From positions 1,674,001-1,738,000 of the forward strand of contig NZ_CP018477.1 of NCBI RefSeq assembly GCF_002277955.1: 64,000 nt of DNA, given 5' to 3'. Of the stretch, positions 16,275 to 55,002 are shown one piece after another (positions within the stretch are counted from its first letter, which is position 1; each line of letters begins with the position of its first letter). This stretch comes from Thermogutta terrifontis. GTDB taxonomy: Bacteria; Planctomycetota; Planctomycetia; Pirellulales; Thermoguttaceae. Both the position numbers and the translations under genes were made by a program. The notes beneath the pieces are model-generated. The model made no database searches. It was not told where the DNA came from and saw nothing but the letters and a program-made list of their open reading frames with translations.

Positions 16275-16726
16275 GGAGGTCCCTCGTGCAGGTGGCGAGC
16301 AGGCGTGTCCACGCAATAATATCGGGCCGAAGGCGATCAACGCAACACAACTTGTGGGCAGCGTATTAAAGTTGGTTGGAAAGTGGCCCAGCAGGGGCGT
16401 GTAAGTCGGGCGTCTGGTCTTCCACAATTGATCTCTGGTGGGCTCCAAATCCGGCTCCGGAGGGCGTCGAACCAGGGGGTGCGAATGGATCGCCAAAAGT
16501 CCTCAAACGTTCCGCCGCGTATCTGCCGCCCTGATGACCTGTGGAAAAGTTAACCAGTCCGTGGCGGCGTGATGGTGAGCACCTCACGGCAAGACTGCAC
16601 ACTCAGTTAGGAAATCCCCCGAGAGCTTATTTGCAGGGAGATAAACATACTCCGCGAGACGTTTTTGAGAAACCGCCGTGCTTGGATTTCAGCGGAGGTC
16701 TAGGATGAGCCTTCGTGGATATCCAG
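16275..16726. other. Intergenic region, nothing recognised
   Basis: About 450 bases between the membrane protein gene and tRNA-Glu. Open frames here are short and without motifs. No terminator or RNA was identified. Confidence 0.45.
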
Positions 16727-16800
16727 CGACCCCGACGGGATTTGAACCCGTGCTACAGGCTTGAAAGGCCTGTGTCCTAACCTGGCTAGACGACGGGGCC
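16727..16800 (-). tRNA. tRNA-Glu, anticodon UUC
   Basis: The minus strand folds as a complete 74-base cloverleaf. The acceptor arm is GGCCCCG with CGGGGTC, the D arm contains AGCCAGGTTAGGAC, the anticodon stem is CAGGC/GCCTG with loop CTTTCAA (anticodon TTC), and the T arm is CGGG-TTCAAAT-CCCG. The discriminator base is G, as in glutamate tRNAs. CCA is not encoded. A good promoter lies directly upstream. Confidence 0.95.
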
Positions 16801-16813
16801 GTCGTGAAACTTA

Positions 16814-16843
16814 ATTATTAGGCCTTTTCTGGCGTCGCGTCAA
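16814..16843 (-). promoter_or_regulatory. Promoter of tRNA-Glu
   Basis: On the minus strand TTGACG (16838-16843), 18-base spacer, AATAAT (16814-16819), then about 13 bases to the tRNA 5' end. Position and motif quality fit a tRNA promoter. Confidence 0.6.
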
Positions 16844-16862
16844 CCGCCCGGGACCCTAACGT

Positions 16863-17070
16863 ATCCCCACTTTTCTAACGCTCGAGGAGAATTGGCATGT
16901 CCACACGGGCTCGGGTGGGAGCGAGATCAACCCCGGAGGGACCTGCTCCTCAAGTCCATGGTCTAATGTCGGACGATCCATTTCACCGGCCGGACGACAT
17001 TTCCTCACTTGGGCGGCTGGTTAAACGTTAGGGGCAATTCATGGATTGCCTCTACGACACATTGCGTCTA
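16863..17070 (+). repeat. Interspersed non-coding repeat, copy A
   Basis: One of three related elements in the window. It begins ATCCCCACTTTTC, contains GGAGGGACCTGCTCCTCAAG (about 16935-16954) and GATCCATTTCACC, and ends with TTAAACG next to a hairpin (17029-17038 with 17045-17054, one mismatch). The other copies are at 37270-37475 (inverted) and 53059-53340. It contains no open frame of note. The rest of the gap from 17071 to 17399 shows nothing recognisable. Confidence 0.65.
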
Positions 17071-17399
17071 TACCGTCTCAGCGGTTTTTGGGAAAATGGG
17101 AATGAATCGACCCGCGGCCGATCTTCGCACTCCCGGCCGGCTTTTATTTTCGTTTTTTGAAGGCCTGTCTTGGCATGCGTGTTTCTAATCCCAGATTATC
17201 GAAAACCTTTCGCCGGGGCCCAGCCGAGATTTCCTTGCCTTTGAGTTTGTAGTTTCTGGGCTTTCCCGGGACTCATGTGGGGGTTGGTGAAGCGCGAACT
17301 CCAACCCCACTGGGCCGGGCCAATCATCACGGGGGAACACCCGAGAAAACAGAAAAGAGTTCTCAAGGTGGGATCAACACACGGCGGGAAAGAGGTGAT

Positions 17400-37208: not shown

Positions 37209-37629
37209 ACCGCTCCTGCACCGCCTGTTACATCCCCGCTTTTTGTAACGATCCGTAAAGGGCTAAGGATGCAACATGATGTAAGGGCAATTTCTGCATT
37301 GCCCCTACGTTTAAACGGGAATGGAACTGAGCAGACGGCCCCCGGGTTGCTAAAAGGATTATCCAAATCTCCGAATTCGGACGTGAGGAGCGGCTCCCGC
37401 GTGCTGAATCTTACTTCTGTGGAGGGTTCGGTCACAGTCCGCATCCTCTCCATGCGATAGCGGAAAAGTGGGGATGAACCAGTTGGCTGGGCTTTTTCCC
37501 GCTTGCCATCTTGCGACGTAGCCGATCACGGGGTTCACCGCAGTGGTCAGCAGGGAACGTCGTTCCCCACGGGCGGTGAATTGACCTCTCTGCAAACGCA
37601 TGTGAAAAACGTTGCGATTTCAATCAGCC
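37209..37629. other. Gap between the TPR protein gene and purB, holds repeat copy B
   Basis: Convergent gap of about 420 bases. Apart from the repeat element at 37270-37475 it contains an imperfect palindrome GGGAACGTCGTTCCC near 37555 and no gene. Confidence 0.5.
37270..37475 (-). repeat. Interspersed non-coding repeat, copy B (inverted)
   Basis: Read on the minus strand this copy begins ATCCCCACTTTTC (37475 leftward), contains GGAGCCGCTCCTCACGTCC (about 37384-37402) and ends GTTTAAACG followed by a hairpin, 37281-37291 with 37298-37308 (11 bases, one mismatch). It has the same order of blocks as copies A and C, in the opposite orientation to both. Confidence 0.6.
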
Positions 37630-52896: not shown

Positions 52897-53058
52897 AGGA
52901 CGTCCCTTTCGCTGAACGTACCGACAGTGGAAACTTCCCGTTTGCGGGAGCCGCGGCAAGGTCACGGGATGCAGAAAGAATCCTCAGCCCGATCTGGTGA
53001 TTCTCAACTTATTCTATGCCTGATCAGATGGGCTCACAACTCAGCGAAATTCTGACTC

Positions 53059-53340
53059 ATCCCCACTTTTCCTCTGCCGACGGAGACGCGGACGTCCAGA
53101 GTGGTTCGCGCGGAAGCGACATTCGATCCGGAGGGACCTGCTGGTCAGGTCCGGTTCCCCACGGTGGATCATGCGTTGCGTTTCGGCCGGCACGACAAGC
53201 ATGCCCATGCGAAGGACTTCTCGGTGGGTGAGGTCCGCATTTGGAGCATCCATTTCACCGAGCGGGCCCCAACTGGTTGGTTGCGTGGTTCGTTAAACGG
53301 CAGGGGCAATTCAAGAATTGCCCCTACTACACGTTGTGCC
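53059..53340 (+). repeat. Interspersed non-coding repeat, copy C (longest)
   Basis: It begins ATCCCCACTTTTC, contains GATCCGGAGGGACCTGCTGG (about 53129-53148) and CATCCATTTCACCG, and ends with CGTTAAACGG beside a perfect hairpin, AGGGGCAATTC (53302-53312) with GAATTGCCCCT (53315-53325). Compared with copy A it has about 75 extra bases in the middle. Confidence 0.65.
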
Positions 53341-53501
53341 CTCGGTATGTCATAGGTTTTTGCAAAAATGGGGTTGGGTATAAACAGACTTGCCTGGCCG
53401 GGGCAGTGAAAATCCGACAACATTCAACACGGGGAAATGTTTTTCTGACGCTGGTGATGGTGACTGAGCACCACGGTGGCCTGCACCGGCAGATAAAAAC
53501 G

Positions 53502-53536
53502 AAAGATTTATAATAGGAAAAACATGCAAAATCTTT
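53502..53536. promoter_or_regulatory. Inverted repeat over the pncB -10 box, candidate NrtR operator
   Basis: AAAGATTT (53502-53509) and AAATCTTT (53529-53536) form a perfect eight-base inverted repeat with a 19-base spacer. The left arm abuts a perfect TATAAT (53509-53514). It lies 15 bases ahead of the pncB start, where a bound repressor would block transcription. Linking it to the NrtR-like protein encoded downstream is inference. Confidence 0.4.
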
Positions 53537-53550
53537 AGGATGGTTGCTGT

Positions 53551-55002
53551 ATGACGAGCTACGCGAAGGCGATCTTTTCCAACCCAGCGCTATTGACCGA
53601 TCTTTATCAATTGACAATGGCCCAGGGTTACTGGCGCCAGGGTTGGGCCGACCGCCGCGCTGTTTTCCATCTGTTTTTTCGCCGGGCACCGTTTGGTGGC
53701 CGATTCGCTATCGCTTGCGGGATGGAAGCGGTGGTGGAATTTCTCAAGCGATGGCGATTCACCGAGGAAGACCTCGGCTATCTGGCGACACTCAAGGCCC
53801 CTGATGGTCGGCCTCTTTTTTGTCCAGAATTTCTCGATTATCTGGCTGGCCTGCGTTTTGAGGGGGAACTCCTGGCCGTGCGGGAGGGGACCATCATTTT
53901 TGCTCACGAGCCTTTTTTGCGGGTTCAGGCGGGTCTGTTGGTCTCGCAGTTGCTGGAGACACCGCTCCTCAATCTGGTGGGATTTCCCACGCTGGTGGCC
54001 ACCAAGGCGGCACGGGTGGCGCGAGCTGCCCATCCCGATCCGGTCATTGAATTTGGCTTGCGACGAGCACAGGGGTTTGAGGCAGCGCTCATTGCAGCGC
54101 GGGCGACATACATCGGCGGATGCGTGGGCACTTCTCATGTCCTGGCCGGAAAACTGTGGGATATCCCCGTTCGGGGCACTCAGGCTCACAGTTGGATTCT
54201 CGCGTTTGGTGACGAGCGCCGGGCTTTCGAGGCTTACGCCGAGAGTTATCCTTCCAGTTGTGTGCTTTTGGTGGATACGTTCGATACAATCCAGGGAGTC
54301 AAACACGCGATCGAGGTAGCACAGAAGCTTAAGGAAAAAGGACATCGATTGCTTGGGATTCGTCTGGACTCCGGCGACTTGGTGACGCTGAGCCAGAAGG
54401 CCCGACAGATGCTCGATGAGGCGGGCCTCAACGATGTGGTTATTCTTGCGTCCGGAGATCTTGATGAGTATCGGATTAGCCGTCTCAAAGCGGCTGGGGC
54501 TCAAATCAATGCGTGGGGAGTGGGTACGCGGCTGACCACGGCCTTCGATGAGCCGGCGCTTTCCGTGGTCTACAAACTGGCGGCCATCCAGGATGGAAAT
54601 GGAGCCTGGCACGACCGAATGAAGATCTCGGCGGAGACGGCCAAACAAACACTGCCGGGAATTTTGCGGGTTCGCCGGTATTATGCCGCAGGCCAGTCCC
54701 AGATGGATGTCATTTACGACGAACGCGATCCCCAGGATCTTCAGCTTCCCGCGAAGCGAGGGAAGGAGTTCACGTTTGACGAAGCCGTGGAGTTACTTCA
54801 ACCCCTGTGGGTAGGGGGCGAACCGGTTCAAGAGGTCAGGAGTCTCAAAGAGATCCGGGAATACGTTCAGCGCCAGCTCGGCGCCTTTGCCTCGGAGTAC
54901 CTCTCGCTGCGACGGGCAAAAGCGTTTCCGGTAAAGATGGCTCGCGGTGTTGCCATCCGCCGCCGACAACTGCGATATCATCATGAGGAGCCTTCAGCAT
55001 GA
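53551..55002 (+). CDS. pncB: Nicotinate phosphoribosyltransferase
   Basis: A 483-residue enzyme that makes nicotinate mononucleotide from nicotinate and PRPP, the committed step of the Preiss-Handler route. Family parts include [15 protein letters not shown] at the N-terminus, [19 protein letters not shown], the His of [14 protein letters not shown] (the residue phosphorylated by ATP in this family), and [16 protein letters not shown]. The stop codon overlaps the nadE start in ATGA, so the two are translationally coupled. Confidence 0.95.

Follow-up and report, generated by a model that had tools for sequence, protein, structure and literature searches.

A probable IS10-type MITE family with internal REP-type palindromes in the genome of Thermogutta terrifontis

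Introduction

What are the non-coding repeats that recur in gene gaps of Thermogutta terrifontis R1, a thermophilic planctomycete from hot springs whose genome is a single contig of 4,810,751 bp? In the window analysed here (the whole stretch of 64,000 nucleotides, with a GC content of 54-58% in 4-kb steps, against 57.34% reported for strain R1 [PMC5673643]), three segments, termed copies A, B and C, had been predicted to share ordered blocks and a terminal hairpin and to form a MITE-like dispersed family, possibly one that folds into structured RNA or acts in transcription termination. Such MITE families seem little described in the Planctomycetota: both uses of the word "repeat" in the available text of the T. 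terrifontis genome paper concern assembly (PMC5673643), and no MITEs or REPs of Thermogutta were named among the literature titles and abstract openings searched, which covered few subscription journals. We put the probability at about 0.9 that A, B and C are copies of one IS10-type MITE family that carries REP-type palindromes inside.

Results

The prediction of a family hung on two things, namely likeness of the three segments beyond that of shuffled sequence and the existence of further copies, and both were borne out. Pairwise local alignment scores were 71 for A-C, 34 for A-B and 41 for B-C, compared to maxima of 28, 27 and 29, respectively, in 500 dinucleotide shuffles each, so that every pair lies above chance. 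With copy C as query the genome returned 131 matches, a number in which incomplete matches, multiple matches at one site and both strands of the palindrome are counted (best 40 of 348 candidates scored), and the best match after copy C itself reached 4e-30. Copies were compared in sequence at 29 of 30 loci, the remaining one (L028) being identical in position with L005. The positions, the blocks and the occurrence of both orientations were as originally described for A, B and C, and none of the three codes for protein, the longest stop-free runs being 54, 85 and 99 codons, respectively.

The ends of the elements lie elsewhere than predicted. The full inverted ends of the family read CTGANNCATCCCCACTTTT, the left terminal inverted repeat being CTGANNCATCCCCACTTTTCC and the right one its inverted partner. 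The conserved left block ATCCCCACTTTTC is mirrored on the right, beyond the hairpin, by its inverted partner GCAAAAGTGGGGATG, and the true right end is GCAAAAGTGGGGATGRNTCAG, the inverted partner of ATCCCCACTTTTC; the hairpin AGGGGCAATTC, which had been taken for the shared end, sits about 55 bp inside the right end instead. The sites given by the original prediction thus hold, whereas its lengths do not, because the true elements are longer and bounded by inverted ends. The end pattern CTGANNCATCCCCACTTTTSC (SC added) matched the T. terrifontis genome 145 times (63+82) with at most 3 mismatches, versus 5 matches (4+1) for the reversed pattern used as control. Fifty-four inverted pairs of ends with a hairpin between them, 174-1131 bp in length, were collected as a non-random sample, since they come from the window plus 89 stretches picked by their match to copy C or to the end pattern; pairs of ends without a hairpin were excluded, and a few of the 54 have spurious ends that match another palindrome (for example at 175584 and 774092).

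These inverted ends are flanked by target-site duplications, which had been named as a check on the prediction and which proved to be 9 bp long. Of the 54 pairs, 23 have 9-bp flanks that agree in at least 7 positions, 14 in at least 8 and 6 in all 9 (examples are CATTGCGGC, TTTCCCCCT, CTTGGCAGG and CAACGGCTC), compared to 7, 0 and 0, respectively, among 2862 mispaired left and right flanks. When duplication lengths of 3-12 were compared, the excess was found at 9 alone, length 10 accounting for 2 of 54. The other 31 pairs fall below 7/9, copies B (3) and C (5) among them. Terminal inverted repeats, a target duplication of fixed length, and short elements in high copy number that lack a transposase gene are the hallmarks of a MITE, and all of them were found. 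The ends beginning CT and the 9-bp direct repeat are moreover those of the IS10 subgroup of the IS4 family as tabulated in the part of PMC2266710 that was available (Table 1).

The three copies in the window can now be delimited as complete elements of 255 bp (A, 16856-17110, + strand), 258 bp (B, 37225-37482, - strand) and 331 bp (C, 53052-53382, + strand), scoring 84.1, 74.2 and 97.3 bits, respectively, with a right-end model (R2) of which all three are themselves rows; the palindrome of R2 was specified by hand, since RNAalifold had given an implausible structure of 3 pairs for the preceding model R1. Copy A has both inverted ends, and its left and right target duplications, CCCGGGACC (16847-16855) and CCCGCGGCC (17111-17119), match at 7 of 9 positions. 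It carries a palindrome tagged GGAG (16935-16958, +; 4 mismatches to GGAGGGACCTGCTTGTCAGGTCCG) and a hairpin tagged GTAG (17028-17055, +; -13.9 kcal/mol). In copy B, whose target duplication is gone (3/9), the GTAG-type hairpin (37281-37308, -; -16.4 kcal/mol) is accompanied by a degenerate GGAG-type palindrome (37378-37401, -), so that the middle block said to occur in all three copies is present in A and C but decayed in B (GGGAGCCGCTCCTCACGTCC, which departs from the consensus at 7 positions). Copy C starts with the left terminal inverted repeat CTGACTCATCCCCACTTTT (53052-53070, +; 0 mismatches to CTGANNCATCCCCACTTTT), followed by a GGAG-type palindrome (53130-53153, +; 1 mismatch), a GTAG-type hairpin (53300-53327, +; 2 mismatches, -15.3 kcal/mol, z -5.0) and a right terminal inverted repeat (53364-53382, +) that is degenerate in its outer half (5 mismatches), without a clear target duplication (5/9). 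The extra ~75 bases noted in copy C are real and hold a second palindrome of the middle-block type, in inverted orientation (53187-53210, -; 4 mismatches to GGAGGGGCACGCTTGTCGTGCCCG).

The basic element of about 250 bp has a consensus, built from the 24 of the 54 elements with lengths of 235-285 bp (the one at 774092 is doubtful), in which the left end is followed by a spacer of ~60 bp, GGAGGGACCTGCTTGTCAGGTCCG, a middle spacer with ATCCATTTCACCG and GGTTAAACG, the hairpin GTAGGGGCAATTCATGAATTGCCCCTAC, ~55 bp and the right end. Four copies form a short version of 174-176 bp (1186505, 3398516, 4126996 and 4598992) that lacks most of the middle, including the middle REP, and possibly represents one deletion derivative that spread. 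Larger forms contain extra GGAG units, inverted partners GGAGGGGCACGCTTGTCGTGCCCG, more hairpins and a third palindrome, GCGGGGCTAAAGCCCCGC. The longest copy, of 1131 bp (contig positions 62485-63615), has its REP block repeated as long, nearly identical segments.

The GGAG unit is a palindrome with a stem around a CTTGT loop in which the pairs 7-21, 9-19 and 10-18 covary, being 81-84% paired among 161 distinct units versus 43-65% in shuffles; at the remaining four of the seven stem pairs a single pair type prevails, so that they do not rise above the shuffles. According to the available portions of PMC2817692 and PMC3733652, REPs and BIMEs are recognized by a tag, a palindrome and inverted dimers; the tag GGAG is absent from those portions. 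The GGAG type is thus a tagged imperfect palindrome with a covarying stem, while the GTAG hairpin barely covaries. These features raise the alternative that the repeats are a REP/BIME array that owes its movement to a RAYT (Y1 tyrosine) transposase alone, with incidental inverted ends, and units of 29 bp do come and go (see below), a Y1_Tnp gene is present, and in the stretches compared 18 GGAG units and 3 hairpins lie more than 400 bp from any TIR-like site, next to 97 and 60, respectively, inside called elements. Yet it is the inverted ends, and not the REPs, that the 9-bp duplications flank, similar ends adjoin IS4-family genes in other genomes, and the genome's sole Y1_Tnp (RAYT-like) gene (L031, contig positions ~896625-896948) is flanked on both sides by different palindromes, GCGGGGCTAAAGCCCCGC / GCGGCGATAAATCGCCGC; no RAYT gene flanked by the GGAG or GTAG type was found in T. 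terrifontis. We therefore speak of REP-type units and not of RAYT-borne REPs. This gene and its flanking palindromes are probably the REPtron of a third REP family, which also occurs inside large MITE copies. The 9-bp duplications largely refute a RAYT as mover of the whole element, a role that survives for the internal units alone, and we consider the RAYT-only explanation barely credible.

If the repeats are IS10-type MITEs, as we favor, transposase genes with the same ends should exist. The exact end pattern was scanned over a collection of 84,980 species genomes, from which records of T. terrifontis itself or of very near genomes were possibly omitted, and gave three loci, one in the sister species and two in the Planctomycetota metagenome-assembled genome FK4.bin106. 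Both FK4.bin106 loci begin exactly at CTGACTCATCCCCACTTTTGC, with different DNA upstream and identical DNA downstream that includes the start of a reading frame, MRRKDTTAWVV... A 56-residue piece of this frame matched no family in Pfam or NCBIfam, and it matched 2 of 392 genomes of the phylum, G150 (49% identity) and G455 (43%). The G150 locus (L140) is an internally deleted form bounded by two inverted CTGACTCATCCCCAG ends, and the G455 locus (L141) is a transposase gene adjoining the end ATGAATCATCCCCAG. The protein of G455 is similar to the IS4-family model NF033591 (E 6e-31; 107.7 bits, under the cut-off of 152) and scores 21 bits with PF01609 (cut-off 23), and a 225-aa piece of it aligns end to end, at 28% identity, with the product of a gene on a Salmonella plasmid whose annotation is ISVsa5 family transposase. 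Used as query against 119 genomes of the taxonomic family, it found one match, in G030 (L142), a genome of the same family as Thermogutta, where an IS4-family transposase gene (NF033591, E 2e-47; 161.8 bits, over the cut-off of 152) is followed by the end CAAAAACTGGGGATAAGTCAG. Inspected by eye for DDE residues and a Y(2)R(3)E(6)K motif, the G455 protein has YRRRMAIEEMFRDEK and that of G030 DGRRMTIEELFRDEK, the tyrosine position being replaced in the latter. A further match of this kind, unannotated and located on an E. coli plasmid, carries CTGATGAATCCCC 95 bp ahead of the reading frame; the end-like sequence recurs at the end of the element in the same orientation, not inverted, and the true right end of that element was therefore not seen. 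Comparison of the ends of the MITE, its relatives and the plasmid element yields the common CTGANNNATCCCC.

Identical or similar ends thus lie next to transposase genes or pieces of them in other Planctomycetota, and with these relatives the predicted MITE-like nature of the family, already indicated by its inverted ends, 9-bp duplications, many copies and lack of coding capacity, is well founded. The parent transposon was traced in part: similar ends occur elsewhere in the phylum, but none with a parent in this genus. With the G455 protein as query among the 119 family genomes, neither T. terrifontis (G000) nor any of its three genus mates (G086, G087 and G088) yielded an IS10-type transposase, for which reason we infer the mobilizer from other genomes. 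A complete IS with two such ends and an intact transposase gene was not recovered among the loci of FK4.bin106 (L062/L064), G150, G455 and G030: those of FK4.bin106 run into a chimera or break, that of G455 is out of frame and cut off by the contig end, and that of G030 begins at a contig end. Within T. terrifontis, PF01609 pointed to two places, IS1634-like and IS701-like by eye, neither of which has convincing family ends, and in the genus mates it gave the loci L128-L137, which lack such ends. A search of solved structures yielded one match, irrelevant at E 0.12. An end-like site with 5 mismatches to the fixed consensus beside one T. terrifontis locus (L066) was judged by eye to be part of a sulfatase-like gene and treated as a chance match. 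That locus (contig positions 3073901-3074419) is itself a broken, IS701-like DDE transposase gene adjoining a truncated sulfatase gene, as read by eye.

A DDE transposase of another group with similar ends, of IS50 type or another 9-bp group, could in principle have moved the MITE as well. The ends of the IS50 subgroup likewise begin with CW and its duplications are 8-9 bp long (Table 1 in the available part of PMC2266710), and an active element with exactly the ends of the MITE was not seen in this genus. The transposases beside such ends nevertheless resemble NF033591, that of G030 above and that of G455 below the cut-off, the latter aligns with the ISVsa5 transposase, and CTGANNNATCCCC is common to the ends and to the IS10-type plasmid match; we accordingly rate another DDE group as unlikely.

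The right-end model R2 recognizes at least 150 copies in T. terrifontis and at least 149 in the sister species G087 (best 150 of 1862 and 150 of 1051 candidates scored, respectively), versus 0 among the scored candidates of the genus mates G086 (best 150 of 601) and G088 (best 150 of 904), in both of which the end pattern had 0 matches at up to 2 mismatches. Nineteen of 25 loci of the sister species were aligned with their T. terrifontis counterparts, six being omitted (L080 as a side match, L082 because it aligned through its end to the contig end, L144 as partial, L152 without a partner, and L154 and L155 with two similar partners each). No empty site was found among the 19, the aligned sites either carrying an element in both species or being too decayed for a verdict. 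The tested insertions therefore predate the split of the two species, and this pair cannot display occupied versus empty sites. L154 and L155 each match both T. terrifontis stretches starting at 3763700 and 3949300, around the element, as if a segment carrying the MITE had been duplicated.

The REP content within fixed copies has changed since the species split. A difference of 29 bp with one GGAG unit separates the species at L156, L146 and L158, a difference of 56 bp with one unit at L150, and one of 109 bp with two units at L147; larger differences that include hairpins occur at L156, L146 and L153, and differences without a recognized unit at L148, L157 and L086. Nucleotide divergence between the species was 14.7% (50/340) for hairpins, 15.9% (107/674) for REPs, 16.1% (82/508) for the ends, 18.5% (515/2791) for the rest of the element and 16.2% (1026/6347) for 200-bp flanks, which may contain coding DNA; the limits of the elements were placed by an automatic procedure and are rough for L083, L146, L151 and L158, L151 itself possibly being a chance end match. 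Six tests compared hairpin, REP or ends with body or flank, and none was significant (hairpin versus flank, p=0.54); weak constraint on the hairpin may still exist since the smallest p, for hairpin versus body, was 0.10. On this comparison of sequences, A, B and C appear to be old, fossil copies that now evolve much as the DNA around them does and give no clear indication of selection for a role.

Could the repeats instead be selected RNA or DNA structures, such as mRNA-stabilizing hairpins, attenuators or terminators, kept because they regulate neighboring genes? The hairpin folds far above shuffled sequence, with z of -5.0 to -5.6 in A, B and C (the middle block of copy C has z -0.75), its columns are among the best conserved across 35 paralogous copies, it diverges slightly less than the body of the element, and the copies lie near genes, with medians of 53 and 103 bp to the closest ORF calls. 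Against this, a check of the stem for compensatory change revealed scarcely any: it is 88.8% paired in the 35 copies versus 87.4% in shuffles (17 of 500 shuffles were as high), the covariation score was reached by 25 of 500 shuffles, and changes on both sides were seen in 2 of 10 pairs. Between species, the hairpin diverges about as its flanks do. A scan of 52950-53560, which spans copy C, found nothing resembling a terminator, and copies show no concentration between convergent genes, the orientation of neighbors around the 54 elements being near random (28 tandem, 16 divergent, 9 convergent and 1 undetermined, by rough ORF calls). An Rfam scan of the window at gathering score reported the tRNA only. 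We read the conservation of the hairpin among paralogues as recent common origin within the burst and not as current selection; repeated replacement of hairpins by REP-like copying would look the same. A selected RNA or terminator role, as had also been proposed, is thus not supported by the sequence comparisons, and maintenance by selection strikes us as very improbable.

Effects of copies on single neighboring genes are possible nonetheless. Copy A starts 55 bp upstream of a tRNA-Glu(TTC) gene on the opposite strand (window positions 16726-16855) and could affect its promoter, copy B lies between convergent genes for a TPR protein and an adenylosuccinate lyase-like protein, and copy C between divergent genes for a DUF3047 protein and nicotinate phosphoribosyltransferase. 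The predicted location in gene gaps holds for A, B and C but not for the family as a whole, since 7 of the 54 elements lie within longer mechanical ORF calls.

Discussion

The history that best accounts for these IS10-type MITEs would begin with an ancestral element of ~250 bp that had kept the terminal inverted repeats alone from an IS4-family IS of the IS10 type. Judging from the relatives, an IS10-type DDE transposase encoded elsewhere would have bound these ends and moved the element by cut-and-paste, each insertion leaving a 9-bp duplication at its target. The family presumably multiplied in the common ancestor of T. terrifontis and its sister species, and the source of transposase would then have been lost from both species, or may never have been resident. 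The interior of the element holds two palindromes of the REP kind, GGAGGGACCTGCTTGTCAGGTCCG and, near the right end, GTAGGGGCAATTCATGAATTGCCCCTAC, and REP units of ~29 bp, single or as inverted dimers, were gained or lost inside fixed copies after the split, either by transposition or by slippage and recombination within arrays. A more tentative proposal, which we hold to be possible although the odds are against it, is that the element houses two unrelated mobile systems, the dead IS10-type MITE, once spread by DDE transposition, serving as a neutral landing pad on which REP units, moved or copied by a tyrosine transposase, still come and go; if so, REPs would have gained a genome-wide set of safe intergenic sites.

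The family is a new one of a known kind. Its ends behave as those of IS10 do and its interior resembles REP/BIME arrays; most unusual is the presence of REP-like units within a MITE. With it, the phylum gains a large family of IS10-type MITEs that can be dated via the sister species, and because the copies are common to both species, single gains and losses of REPs can be counted at each copy, which makes the growth of REPs and BIMEs, a standing question, directly testable.

Several known systems share part of this architecture. Like the Thermogutta MITE, the BOX elements of Streptococcus pneumoniae are modular, with ends that are fixed and middle units that vary in number, and their sequence is regarded as unrelated to that of the MITE. 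IS10 and ISVsa5 (IS4 family, IS10 subgroup) resemble the MITE in ends that begin with CT(GA) and in the 9-bp target duplication (PMC2266710, available part), and the IS10-type plasmid match has ATCCCC at end positions 8-13 in common with it; unlike IS10 and ISVsa5, the MITE is devoid of a transposase gene, has about one fifth of their length and contains internal palindromes. BrickBuilt and MITE464/PgRS of Porphyromonas gingivalis also combine a variable number of internal repeats with IS-family ends and intergenic location, whereas their ends are of IS5 type, their duplications inconsistent, their repeats minisatellites and not REP palindromes, and their copies 19 versus at least 150; in Neisseria, ATR MITEs adjoin REP2 repeats (both from the available part of PMC4596501). 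Finally, GTAG-tagged REPs, BIMEs and REPINs, as described in the available parts of PMC3733652 and PMC2817692, which report GTAG repeats in Planctomycetes, are like the Thermogutta units short tagged palindromes that form inverted dimers and are dispersed between genes; the Thermogutta units differ from them in lying inside an element bounded by terminal inverted repeats and in that one of the two types is tagged GGAG.
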